64,000 nt of DNA from Gemella morbillorum (GTDB taxonomy: Bacteria; Bacillota; Bacilli; Staphylococcales; Gemellaceae). The stretch spans positions 682,001 to 746,000 of the forward strand of contig NZ_LS483440.1 of NCBI RefSeq assembly GCF_900476045.1, written 5' to 3'. This document shows positions 52,966 to 57,120 of this stretch, piece after piece; the stretch's first letter is position 1; each line of letters begins with the position of its first letter. The position numbers and the translations under genes were made by a program. Below the pieces are notes generated by a model. That model was not told where the DNA came from. It searched no databases and saw nothing but the letters and a program-made list of their open reading frames with translations.

Positions 52966-55900
52966 ATGAAAAATATAACATGGTATTTAGGACTAGAAGT
53001 TGGGCCGACAAGTATAGGATGGGCGGCCACAGACAGCAATTATAAATTGTTGAGAAAAAATAAAAAGAGATTATGGGGAGCTCGTTTGTTTGAAGAAGCA
53101 AAAACTGCTGCTGATAGACGATCATTTAGAGCTGGTCGCAGACGCTTGGCAAGAAGGAAATGGCGAATTAATTTACTACAAGAACTTTTTGTTAAAGAAA
53201 TTTCTAAAAATGATCCTAATTTCTTCTTAAGACTAAAAGAAAGTAAATATAATTTCGAAGATAAGAGTTTAATGAATGAATATATACTTTTTAATGATAA
53301 AGATTATACAGATAAGGACTATTATAAAGAGTATCCAACCATTTATCATCTTCGTTCAAGTCTTATGACAGAGGAAAATCCAGATATAAGAAAAGTATAT
53401 TTGGCAATACATAGTATGCTAAAAAACCGTGGGCATTTTTTGCTTCAAGGTCAAAGTTTTAGCGATAGCAATATTGATAGTGTAATTAAAGAACTATTGG
53501 ATTTAAGTATAGTTAAGACTAATATTGAAGTTACTGATGAAGTTATACAAAGTTTGAAAGAAATTGCTTTACAAAAGAAAAATTTATCAGATAAAAACAA
53601 TGATGTAAAAAAACTTTATCCAAAAGAAAAACAACTTCAAGAGATTTTTAAATTAGTTTTTGGTGGTAAAACATCACTAGATAAACTATATGATATAGAA
53701 GAATATAAAGAATTAGATAATAGTGTAAAAAGTATTTCATTTAAAGAAAAAGTCTATGAAGAAGTACGCCCGGATTATGAACAAATCTTATCAAATTATA
53801 TAGAGTTGCTAGATTTAGCAAAATTAGTATATGATAGTATAGTTTTAGCTGATATAAAAAAAGAAGGGAAAACAATATCAGAATCAAAAGTAGAATTATA
53901 TAATAAACATAAAGATGATTTAGTAAATCTAAAAAAATTAGTAAAAACTGATAGCAAATTGTCCGAGGATAAGAAAAAAGAAGTTTATTTTGAAATTTTT
54001 AAAGAAGATAAGGAAAAAGGAACAAACTATGTAAATTATACACATAGAAGCCAAGAAGGAAAAAGTTGCTCATATGAGGATTTCAAGAAATTCTTGAAAA
54101 AAGAATTAGAAAAATTAGAAGATAGCCCTACTAAAACTACAATTTTAGAAGAACTTGACTTAGAAACTTTTTTACCACTACAAAGAACAAAAGATAATTC
54201 GGTAGTTCCTTATCAAATACATAAAGAAGAACTTGTGAAAATTTTAGATAATGCAACTAAATACCATAGCTTTTTAGATGAAAAAGATGGTAGTGGCTAC
54301 AGTACACGAGAAAAAGTTGTTCAATTATTCGAATTTAGAATACCATATTATATAGGACCGTTGAATACACATCATAATACGGAAAATGGAGGATATTCAT
54401 GGGCAATCCGTAAGAAAGGTATGGAGAGCGTACCAGTAACTCCGTGGAATTTCAAAGATGTGATAGATGAAAGTGCCAGCACAGAGGCGTTTGTTAATAA
54501 CCTAACAAACAAGTGTACTTATCTTTCCGGAGAAGATGTTCTTCCAAAAAATTCATTATTGTATTCTGAATATGCTTTACTAAATGAACTAAATGCGCTT
54601 AGATATGAAGGAAATAGAATCAGTGTAGAAGCACGTGATATTATAGTAACAAAGCTATTCAAAGAACAAGGAAAAAAAGTTACTAAAAAAACTATAAAAG
54701 AACTTTTGAAAACTGAAGGATTTATTGATGGTAAGGGAGAAATTGCAGGAATAGATAATATTGTGAAAAATGACCTGAAATCATATCATGATTTCAAAAA
54801 AATTCTTGGGGATAAATTTGACAAAGAACGTGTAGAAAATATTATTTTGTGGATTACATTGTATGGAGAATCACGCAAGCTAATAAAAGAAAAAATAATA
54901 AAAGTTTATGGGGATTTTTATACAGTTGATGAAATAGAAAAAATGTCACGCTTAACTTATAAAGATTGGGGAACTTTAAGTAGAAAACTTTTAACAGGAT
55001 TAGTAAGTGAAAAATTATATAATGAAGAAACAGGTGAATGTTTAAATATAATAGGAGCTATGAGACAAAGTACAATTCTTTTTATGGAATTGTTGGCTGA
55101 TAAGTTCGATTATATGAGCAAAATCAAAAATCATAATAAAGAAAATAAAGATGATATAACTGAAATAACTCCAGACATTTTAGAAAATCTTTATGCAAGC
55201 CCATCTGTTAAACGTTCAATTTGGCAAACAGTTAGGATAGTAGAAGAATTAAAAACTATAATTGGCTGTGCACCTACTAAAATCTTTGTTGAAACAACAA
55301 AGAGAAGTAATGCTCCTTATAAAGTACCAACTCTAAATCGAAATGATTTAGTCGTTAAGTACAAATGTATAAAAGAGCAAGAAATTTTTGAATTAGAAAA
55401 AGAAATAAATAACTCATTAGATTTTACTCTTAATAAAAACAGGTTGATTAATGAAGAAGCTTCAAAACTTAAAGCAACGAAATTATATTTATATTATACA
55501 CAATTAGGCCGTTGTATGTATACTGGTAAAAAAATAGACCTAGGTGAATTATTTGATAATAATAAATATGATATAGATCATATTTATCCGCAAAGCAAAG
55601 TGAAGGACGGTAGTTTTAATAATATAGTTTTAGTAACCAAAGCTAGTAATGAGATGAAAGCAGATGTATTTCCTCTCAAAAGCAAGTTCCAAACAAAAGA
55701 AAACAAGAGACTTTGGCGCTTCTTAAAAGAGAAAAAATTAATAACCGAAGAAAAATATAATCGCTTAGTAAGAACAGAAGAATTTAGTGATGATGAATTA
55801 ACAGGATTTATCAAACGTCAATTTGGAGAAACATCACAAACGATAAAAGTAATGTCAAATATTTTAGGAGAATTAAATCCAAAAACTACTGTTTGTTATT

Positions 55901-57120
55901 CAAAGTCAGAAAATGTAAGTTCATTTAGACAAAACTTTGGAAAAATAAAAGAAGGTAATAGAAAATCTGGAAATAACGAAAAATTAATTAGAGTTCAAGA
56001 AATTAATGACTATCACAGAGCAAAGGACGCTTATTTAAACATAGTGGTAGGAAATGTCTATGATGTTAAATTCACGCAAAATGTTTATAATTTTATAAAA
56101 AATAAAAAAGATGTACGAAAATATTCACTAAATAGCTTATTCTATACAGATGTAAAAAACGCTAATACAATAGCGTGGGAAATGGATAAAACTGTTTACG
56201 TAGTAGAAAAAACAATGAACAATAACAATATTTTAATAACAAGAAGAGCTGTCGAACAAAAAGGTGCATTATACGATGCTACAATCTATAAAGCAAAAAT
56301 AGCTACTAAGGCAAAAGAAGGTACATATTATCCATTAAAAACAACTGATAGCAAGATTAAAGATGTTAGTAAGTATGGAGGATTCACCAAAGTAAAGATA
56401 GCATATTATTCTATTTTTGAGTACACTCTAGATGGGAAAAAAGGGAAACAAAAAATCACTAGAATAGTACCAATTCCTATATATATTTCGCAAAATATTA
56501 AAGATGACAAAGCTCTATTGGAATATGCACAGATAGGATTGCCAGGAAAAGATTTGAAAATAAAATACAGAAAATTATGTATAGGTAGTCTAGTAAAAAT
56601 AAATAACTTTAATTACTATATAGGTGGGAAGACTAATAATAATTTCACTTTCGATAGTGCAGTTCAAGTGATATTAGATAAAGATAGTGAGTCATATATA
56701 AAAGAGTTAGCTAAATATTTAAATTGGAAAAAAGAAAATAAAGATGGAAAATTATGGGAAAGTATAACTGAAGATAAAAATATTCAATTATATGATTCTC
56801 TCGTGAAAAAAATGAACACTGGGATATTTATTAGAAAAACACCTAATAAATATACTGAGTTATTGACATTAGAGGTAAAGAATAAGTTTATTAATATTGA
56901 TATAGATGAACAAGTGAAATTATTGTTAGAGATTTTAAATCTTTTAACCAATAAAAAATTTACATCTAAATTAAATGAAATTGGTATAACGGCCAGTCGA
57001 GGAGTATGTAGTTTTAATCTATCAAATCAATCTCAGTTTTCAATAATAGAGCAATCTGTGACGGGAGTTTATGAAAAAGAAAAGTTAATAATAGAGAAGA
57101 AAAAAGAGGGAATTTTATAG
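52966..57120 (+). CDS. cas9: Cas9 of type II-A-like architecture with substituted RuvC active site
   Basis: 1,384 residues, full length, no stop or frameshift. RuvC-I reads LGLEVGPTSIGW, so the catalytic Asp is Glu11. The Arg-rich bridge helix is at 51-76, then the REC lobe to about 720. RuvC-II (IFVETTKRSN) keeps Glu776. HNH is intact: D871, H872 and N895 in YDIDHIYPQS and KASNEMKAD. RuvC-III reads YHRAKDAYLN, so the His equivalent to SpCas9 H983 is Arg1018 while Asp1021 remains. The PAM-interacting region is about 1110-1384. It resembles the GWAVTD...LWGVRLFDEA branch of Firmicutes Cas9s. AGGAAGAG precedes the ATG. There is no cas1, cas2 or csn2. Strand cleavage by HNH is plausible; RuvC cleavage is doubtful. 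Confidence 0.93.
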   Translation: MKNITWYLGLEVGPTSIGWAATDSNYKLLRKNKKRLWGARLFEEAKTAADRRSFRAGRRRLARRKWRINLLQELFVKEISKNDPNFFLRLKESKYNFEDKSLMNEYILFNDKDYTDKDYYKEYPTIYHLRSSLMTEENPDIRKVYLAIHSMLKNRGHFLLQGQSFSDSNIDSVIKELLDLSIVKTNIEVTDEVIQSLKEIALQKKNLSDKNNDVKKLYPKEKQLQEIFKLVFGGKTSLDKLYDIEEYKELDNSVKSISFKEKVYEEVRPDYEQILSNYIELLDLAKLVYDSIVLADIKKEGKTISESKVELYNKHKDDLVNLKKLVKTDSKLSEDKKKEVYFEIFKEDKEKGTNYVNYTHRSQEGKSCSYEDFKKFLKKELEKLEDSPTKTTILEELDLETFLPLQRTKDNSVVPYQIHKEELVKILDNATKYHSFLDEKDGSGYSTREKVVQLFEFRIPYYIGPLNTHHNTENGGYSWAIRKKGMESVPVTPWNFKDVIDESASTEAFVNNLTNKCTYLSGEDVLPKNSLLYSEYALLNELNALRYEGNRISVEARDIIVTKLFKEQGKKVTKKTIKELLKTEGFIDGKGEIAGIDNIVKNDLKSYHDFKKILGDKFDKERVENIILWITLYGESRKLIKEKIIKVYGDFYTVDEIEKMSRLTYKDWGTLSRKLLTGLVSEKLYNEETGECLNIIGAMRQSTILFMELLADKFDYMSKIKNHNKENKDDITEITPDILENLYASPSVKRSIWQTVRIVEELKTIIGCAPTKIFVETTKRSNAPYKVPTLNRNDLVVKYKCIKEQEIFELEKEINNSLDFTLNKNRLINEEASKLKATKLYLYYTQLGRCMYTGKKIDLGELFDNNKYDIDHIYPQSKVKDGSFNNIVLVTKASNEMKADVFPLKSKFQTKENKRLWRFLKEKKLITEEKYNRLVRTEEFSDDELTGFIKRQFGETSQTIKVMSNILGELNPKTTVCYSKSENVSSFRQNFGKIKEGNRKSGNNEKLIRVQEINDYHRAKDAYLNIVVGNVYDVKFTQNVYNFIKNKKDVRKYSLNSLFYTDVKNANTIAWEMDKTVYVVEKTMNNNNILITRRAVEQKGALYDATIYKAKIATKAKEGTYYPLKTTDSKIKDVSKYGGFTKVKIAYYSIFEYTLDGKKGKQKITRIVPIPIYISQNIKDDKALLEYAQIGLPGKDLKIKYRKLCIGSLVKINNFNYYIGGKTNNNFTFDSAVQVILDKDSESYIKELAKYLNWKKENKDGKLWESITEDKNIQLYDSLVKKMNTGIFIRKTPNKYTELLTLEVKNKFINIDIDEQVKLLLEILNLLTNKKFTSKLNEIGITASRGVCSFNLSNQSQFSIIEQSVTGVYEKEKLIIEKKKEGIL

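Follow-up and report, generated by a model that had tools for sequence, protein, structure and literature searches.

A Gemella morbillorum Cas9 with an apparent RuvC-confined loss of constraint and a 17-nt guide shared with a prophage and a probable conjugative element

Natural Cas9 proteins with an inactivated RuvC domain and natural guides are each already known. In Francisella, a regulatory small CRISPR (clustered regularly interspaced short palindromic repeats)-associated RNA (scaRNA) involves a degenerate repeat beside the gene for the trans-activating CRISPR RNA (tracrRNA). A scaRNA also acts in regulation in Neisseria (PMC13431127), and the tracr-L of Streptococcus pyogenes fuses a natural guide to the tracrRNA and employs Cas9 as a binder (PMC11417352). 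Solitary repeat units behind viral promoters constitute RNA anti-CRISPRs (Racrs; PMC10651486), a phage-encoded Cas9c pairs an inactivated RuvC with a phage tracrRNA (reviewed in PMC11656645), and the type V-M effector Cas12m is a natural DNA binder that confers immunity by targeted binding (PMC11013384). Here we analyze a cas9 gene in a 64,000-nt stretch of the Gemella morbillorum chromosome (contig NZ_LS483440.1, positions 682,001–746,000; hereafter the window), which encodes a type II-A-like Cas9 with the Asp and His replaced at two RuvC sites. On balance, we favor the reading that this protein no longer serves adaptive immunity and persists as an RNA-guided binder, or as a nickase that cuts only the target strand through HNH, with few fixed guides. 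In the open-access literature we found no description of a Gemella Cas9 whose RuvC is inactive, and no paper combining a RuvC-inactivated Cas9 with natural shared guides.

The window locus resembles type II-A Cas9 systems (cas_Csn1, TIGR01865) in domain order, HNH triad, a tracrRNA-like partner, and synteny with an intact sister II-A locus, and differs from them in its RuvC, which is replaced at Asp and His and appears unconstrained, and in a genome without Cas1 and a locus without cas2, csn2, or an array. Like tracr-L, a predicted unit on a prophage of the same genome joins a natural guide and a tracrRNA scaffold in one transcript unit; unlike tracr-L, this single-guide RNA (sgRNA) is prophage-borne, has a promoter to itself, and includes the complete repeat-loop-anti-repeat; moreover, the cas9 promoter yielded no match here, and the Cas9 is altered in RuvC. 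The scaRNA arrangement of a degenerate repeat next to a tracrRNA gene, as in Francisella, recurs outside an array and behind its own promoter, albeit a weak one in the window, but here there are three copies with one guide, two of them on probable mobile elements. As with Racrs, solitary repeat units stand behind promoters in the prophage and in a second, probably mobile region that resembles an integrative and conjugative element (ICE); unlike Racrs, they share their guide identically with a host unit, and the prophage carries a full sgRNA rather than a bare repeat. Phage Cas9c likewise occurs naturally with RuvC inactivated and a tracrRNA of its own, whereas the window Cas9 is chromosomal, sits at an ancestral bacterial II-A locus, and retains an HNH under apparent constraint. 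Cas12m offers a parallel for the RNA-guided binding without DNA cleavage that we propose, through an effector unrelated to Cas9.

The product of the window gene matches TIGR01865 across its full length (843 bits), and its 1,384 residues contain the full type II-A Cas9 domain set in Pfam (bridge helix, REC, HNH_4, and PI, the domain interacting with the protospacer adjacent motif [PAM]). The alignment set it against 24 further Cas9s, of which seven belong to its family, twelve come from its order, and five from other bacteria; the G005 gene, interrupted by a prophage, was read in two pieces. All 24 carry Asp at column 11 and His at column 1018, and the window Cas9 alone has Glu and Arg, leaving the RuvC catalytic D, E, H, D set incomplete. 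E776, H1017, D1021, H872, and N895 are invariant across the alignment, and column 871 is D in 23 of the 24 and E in one, such that the HNH catalytic D, H, and N are present as D871, H872, and N895, the last of which we read from the alignment as the equivalent of N863 in the S. pyogenes Cas9 (SpCas9). A preliminary description of the locus had reported the Glu11 and Arg1018 replacements, the retention of Glu776, Asp1021, and the HNH residues, and a 1,384-codon frame free of lesions; translation and alignment bear all of this out, with neither stop nor frameshift. Cas9s in phage and plasmid records were all below 60% identity to the window protein.

Changes in this Cas9 extend well beyond the two active-site residues. 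We counted changes on the window lineage and on that of an active-looking sister Cas9 (G003) at sites where two outgroups (G001 and G002) agree, and obtained window:sister ratios of 33:7 for RuvC, 26:21 for REC, 7:7 for HNH, and 15:14 for PI (RuvC versus the rest, p 0.003). RuvC is thus accelerated about five-fold, and REC, HNH, and PI are not faster. Using only G001 as outgroup gave 40:11 for RuvC, and substituting G002 for G003 gave 46:14; the other domains remained even. Where the seven remaining family members agree without exception, the window Cas9 differs at 14 of 87 columns in RuvC versus 15 of 309 elsewhere (p 0.0016), and the bias persists once the two noticed sites are removed (12/85 versus 15/309, p 0.006); three other species put through this test showed no RuvC bias. 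Because both sites sit within a RuvC-wide excess of changes, E11 and R1018 are not readily ascribed to chance.

By these comparisons, RuvC alone appears to have lost constraint, long enough ago for dozens of changes to accumulate, while REC, HNH, PI, and the bridge helix appear to be held as tightly as in an array-serving Cas9. A relaxation limited to RuvC suggests that RuvC cutting was lost and that guided binding and probably HNH function were retained; general decay predicts otherwise. E11 by itself may leave weak RuvC activity, but E11 and R1018 together with the RuvC-wide relaxation would make RuvC cleavage unlikely. The preliminary description had taken an open frame after active-site loss as a sign of retained function, and the sister-like rates of REC, HNH, and PI beside the roughly five-fold RuvC excess support it. 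Its further suggestion of an HNH-only nickase or a binding-only regulator fits the same rates. The description had also held that an alteration unique to this strain, with signs of decay, would speak against retention. All relatives do have Asp and His, this lineage alone is altered, and the locus has decayed, yet the protein outside RuvC has not.

The source genome (G000), from a single strain, is one contig of 1.76 Mb and 100% complete, and Cas9 is present in six of nine genomes of the genus. In the sister species G003, cas9-cas1-cas2-csn2-tracrRNA and a long array with the repeat GTTTGAGAGATATGTAAATTTTGAATTCTACAAAAC occupy the same site, flanked by nuc/permease and murF. In the window, cas9 is followed by a 353-bp gap and then murF; the gap contains a promoter-like site and a tracrRNA-like gene (57165–57282), and one repeat (Table 1). 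Neither Cas1 nor a CRISPR array of the GTTTGAGAGATATGTAAATTTTGAATTCTACAAAAC-type repeat was found anywhere in the genome, and no cas2 or csn2 open reading frame (ORF) lies at the cas9 locus (a genome-wide search for these two was not made). To judge from its sequence, the locus has lost its adaptation genes and array and kept cas9 intact. The preliminary description mentioned neither this loss nor the tracrRNA-like gene and the guides.

Table 1. Coordinates of cas9, the RNA genes, and the guide units
Feature	Position	Strand	Remarks
cas9	52966..57120	+	1384 codons, intact frame, no stop; codon 11 D>E (RuvC-I), codon 1018 H>R (RuvC-III)
Candidate extended -10 (TGCTAAAAT) of cas9 promoter	52919..52927	+	read from sequence
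Promoter-like site TTGATT-17-TATAAT, just 5' of tracrRNA-like gene	57165..57193	+	consensus match only
tracrRNA-like gene	57200..57282	+	built of anti-repeat (57200-57230), nexus, and terminal hairpins; placed in an alignment with sister tracrRNAs
Weak promoter-like site TTGTCA-17-TAAAAG, immediately 5' of window guide	57308..57336	+	9/12 match; background 5.7%
17-nt guide AAATACGGTATTTTATT	57340..57356	+	same 17 nt in the genome's prophage and ICE-like units
Lone degenerate CRISPR repeat GTTTGAGAGATATGTAAATTTTGAATCTA	57357..57385	+	homologous to array-terminal repeat of another species
Prophage unit	G000:C1:666143, ~16 kb before window		between endolysin and 243-aa ORF
ICE-like unit	1342909	-	after UvrD-like helicase; promoter TTGACA-17-TAAAAT

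The predicted window tracrRNA includes an anti-repeat. A covariance model built from six sequences, the window and prophage sequences both among them, matched the window at 57216–57280 (G000:C1:739216-739280; E 2.6e-12) and the tracr part of the prophage unit (E 6e-13); Rfam gave no match at the window locus. The lone guide-repeat unit that follows shares 91% identity across 45 nt, GGTATT(T/A)TATT among them, with the unit closing the array of G002, a similarity which, set against saturated synonymous divergence, suggests an old, conserved element. In the G002 unit the guide-repeat register is shifted by one base, and the same seed is not assured. Two related species, with intact cas9 loci elsewhere, each have another tracrRNA-like gene upstream of metG, again with a degenerate repeat after it (G007:C5:318405, L120; G001:C3:9612, L121).

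The guide AAATACGGTATTTTATT has three exact matches in the genome, each directly 5' of a repeat of this family. One lies on a prophage identified by its holin, endolysin, and terminase genes, where the order is TTGACA-17-TATTAT, guide, repeat, short loop, anti-repeat, nexus, hairpin, and the unit folds as an sgRNA (z -2.9). The 243-aa ORF beside it at the prophage end (L061:10380-11108) has no Pfam or PHROGs match and is a possible accessory gene. Another match lies in a region encoding a VirB1-like hydrolase, a UvrD-like helicase, and conjugation-like membrane proteins, which from this gene content we infer to be a conjugative element. The promoters of the prophage and ICE-like units each match at 11 of 12 positions in the right place, a score that 0.1% of random positions reach. 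Across the three units the upstream sequences are unrelated and the repeats have diverged, while the guide is identical at 17 of 17 positions. An identical guide amid diverged flanks and repeats points to selection on the guide, as an argument rather than a proof, and one limited by the relatedness of the units by descent and the small number of sites.

All three unit repeats pair with a sister-type anti-repeat at about -25 kcal/mol, far above shuffled repeats. For the host tracrRNA-like gene, duplex energies with repeats span -10.6 to -20 kcal/mol. With the host anti-repeat, the three unit repeats give -15.2 (window), -13.5 (ICE-like), and -10.6 kcal/mol (prophage), against a mean of -6.9 for shuffled repeats; thus, the host tracrRNA pairs above chance with the window and ICE-like repeats and not clearly with that of the prophage, whose unit brings its own anti-repeat. 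The sister Cas9 probably recognizes a PAM of about NNNNCC, as six spacer matches from G003 to prophages of the genus have C at position 5 in six of six and at position 6 in five of six. The repeat 3' of the guide reads GTTTGA in the window and ICE-like units and ATTTGA in the prophage unit; neither fits NNNNCC, so the units should not be self-targets if the window Cas9 has kept the sister PAM.

In the mechanism we propose, RNAs from the three units would be made and loaded onto Cas9, and the complex would bind a target. Lacking the ability to make a double-strand break, it would repress or nick without killing, as in the S. pyogenes tracr-L and Francisella scaRNA cases. We infer the regulatory step, because no guide target rose above chance. 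That the host unit, the prophage sgRNA, and the conjugative-element-like CRISPR RNA (crRNA) all feed one guide into a single nuclease-impaired, non-cutting regulatory Cas9 on the chromosome is a more tentative proposal, which we consider possible but doubtful. If the overall reading is correct, evolution has produced on a bacterial chromosome a counterpart of the nickase and dead Cas9s made in laboratories, a guided binder that makes no double-strand cut and has fixed guides. A prophage-encoded sgRNA would be a new form of phage Cas9 use, in regulation or inhibition, and the domain-by-domain rate contrast would provide a clean way to find repurposed Cas9s elsewhere.

Several results weigh against a retained, guided Cas9. 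The analysis concerns a single strain, and saturated synonymous divergence would hide a recent loss of constraint in the rest of the protein. Pairing by the host anti-repeat is weaker than by that of the sister (-15 versus -26 kcal/mol), and for the prophage repeat it does not exceed what the top 5% of shuffled repeats reach (-10.8 kcal/mol), which may be decay. Beyond the three units, no chromosomal match to the guide has fewer than two mismatches, and three sites have two; seed-plus-NNNNCC sites number 12 genome-wide versus 18 for a reversed control. The cas9 promoter contains no seed match above chance, nor did we find the roughly 11-nt guide match with PAM at a cas promoter that characterizes tracr-L: the longest seed in the strain's own cas9 promoter is 6 nt, those of five relatives reach 9 nt without a PAM, and partial guide matches to promoters were at chance level.

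Some candidate targets and relatives of the units were set aside. A 13/17 guide match at the cas9 start codon of three species was rejected as homologous coding sequence, and three viral contigs with the 17-mer and C at PAM position 5 have higher GC and were taken as chance. Other viral contigs with the tracr motif lack the surrounding scaffold and were also taken as chance, the strain's own prophage excepted. Self-regulation of the prophage sgRNA may be indicated by a seed of 9 nt close to its promoter; about 0.1 such seeds are expected by chance per region of this kind.

The main rival holds that the mobile units serve as RNA anti-CRISPRs against sister strains with an active Cas9: by occupying Cas9 with a guide that has no target or represses cas, they would let the element survive Cas9 immunity, and the host Cas9 would be a worn remnant of that conflict. 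We regard this as a serious possibility, though not a probable one. Solitary repeats behind viral promoters are known Racrs (PMC10651486), and these units lie behind strong promoters in a prophage and in the region of the VirB1-like hydrolase and helicase. Spacers of G003 match the sgRNA-bearing prophage (two of them) and also the G005 prophage, so such phages do appear to meet active Cas9. The repeats of all three units, moreover, pair almost perfectly with the sister-type anti-repeat and weakly with that of the present host. A decoy needs no conserved guide, however, yet the guide has stayed identical while flanks and repeats diverged; one unit is part of the host locus, and the anti-CRISPR explanation does not predict a RuvC-only relaxation. 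The two accounts are compatible, in that a host regulatory crRNA can have been copied by mobile elements against the role of Cas9, and our confidence in the one therefore does not exclude the other.

Recent pseudogenization would instead leave Cas9 idle after deletion of cas1, cas2, csn2, and the array, with the RuvC changes as the first neutral or self-protective hits. The plain decay of the locus and the diverged anti-repeat agree with this, but neutral hits should fall in all domains and relax the protein evenly, whereas RuvC alone is accelerated and REC, HNH, and PI evolve at the sister's rates, and the 1384 codons are uninterrupted. The dN/dS (nonsynonymous to synonymous rate) comparison called for in the preliminary description likewise returned a ratio that is not raised on the window branch (omega 0.012 versus 0.034 elsewhere), but dS exceeds 3, which makes the values unreliable, and a saturated branch ratio allows no dating of the loss of constraint. 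We consider pseudogenization unlikely.

Still less probable is a RuvC that works more slowly or with another metal through Glu11 and an altered base position, making the protein an endonuclease with fixed guides against mobile elements, as the preliminary description had also entertained. Glu is a conservative change and E776 and D1021 are kept. The His-to-Arg change, however, puts a charge at the catalytic histidine, 12 more RuvC positions invariant in relatives have changed, and RuvC cleavage by SpCas9 requires D10 and H983; the RuvC-wide relaxation argues against such an enzyme. That the shared 17-mer is an operator rather than a guide is similarly improbable: it does contain a 13-bp near-palindrome (AAATAC-G-GTATTT) at the same place just downstream of each promoter, but conservation continues beyond it, taking in TATT, as far as the repeat, in about 165 kb of the genome the palindrome is present nowhere but at these units, and the full 17-mer has no further match genome-wide.

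Related cas9 loci show interruptions of their own. In G002, cas9 shares a contig with csn2, tracrRNA, and a short array but is separated from them by an IS30-like remnant beside a truncated cas1 (L016:6810-7933). In G005, a prophage with a tyrosine integrase seemingly lies inside cas9 and splits it (L019:8480-9661, L020:10310-11453); the apparent site is exactly the RuvC-III His-His-Ala-Lys codons, with a shared core ATGCGAA, and a single insertion is deduced from two contigs. In a related genus (G014, L022), the Cas9 frame carries one in-frame stop, so loss of cas9 may be ongoing in the family.

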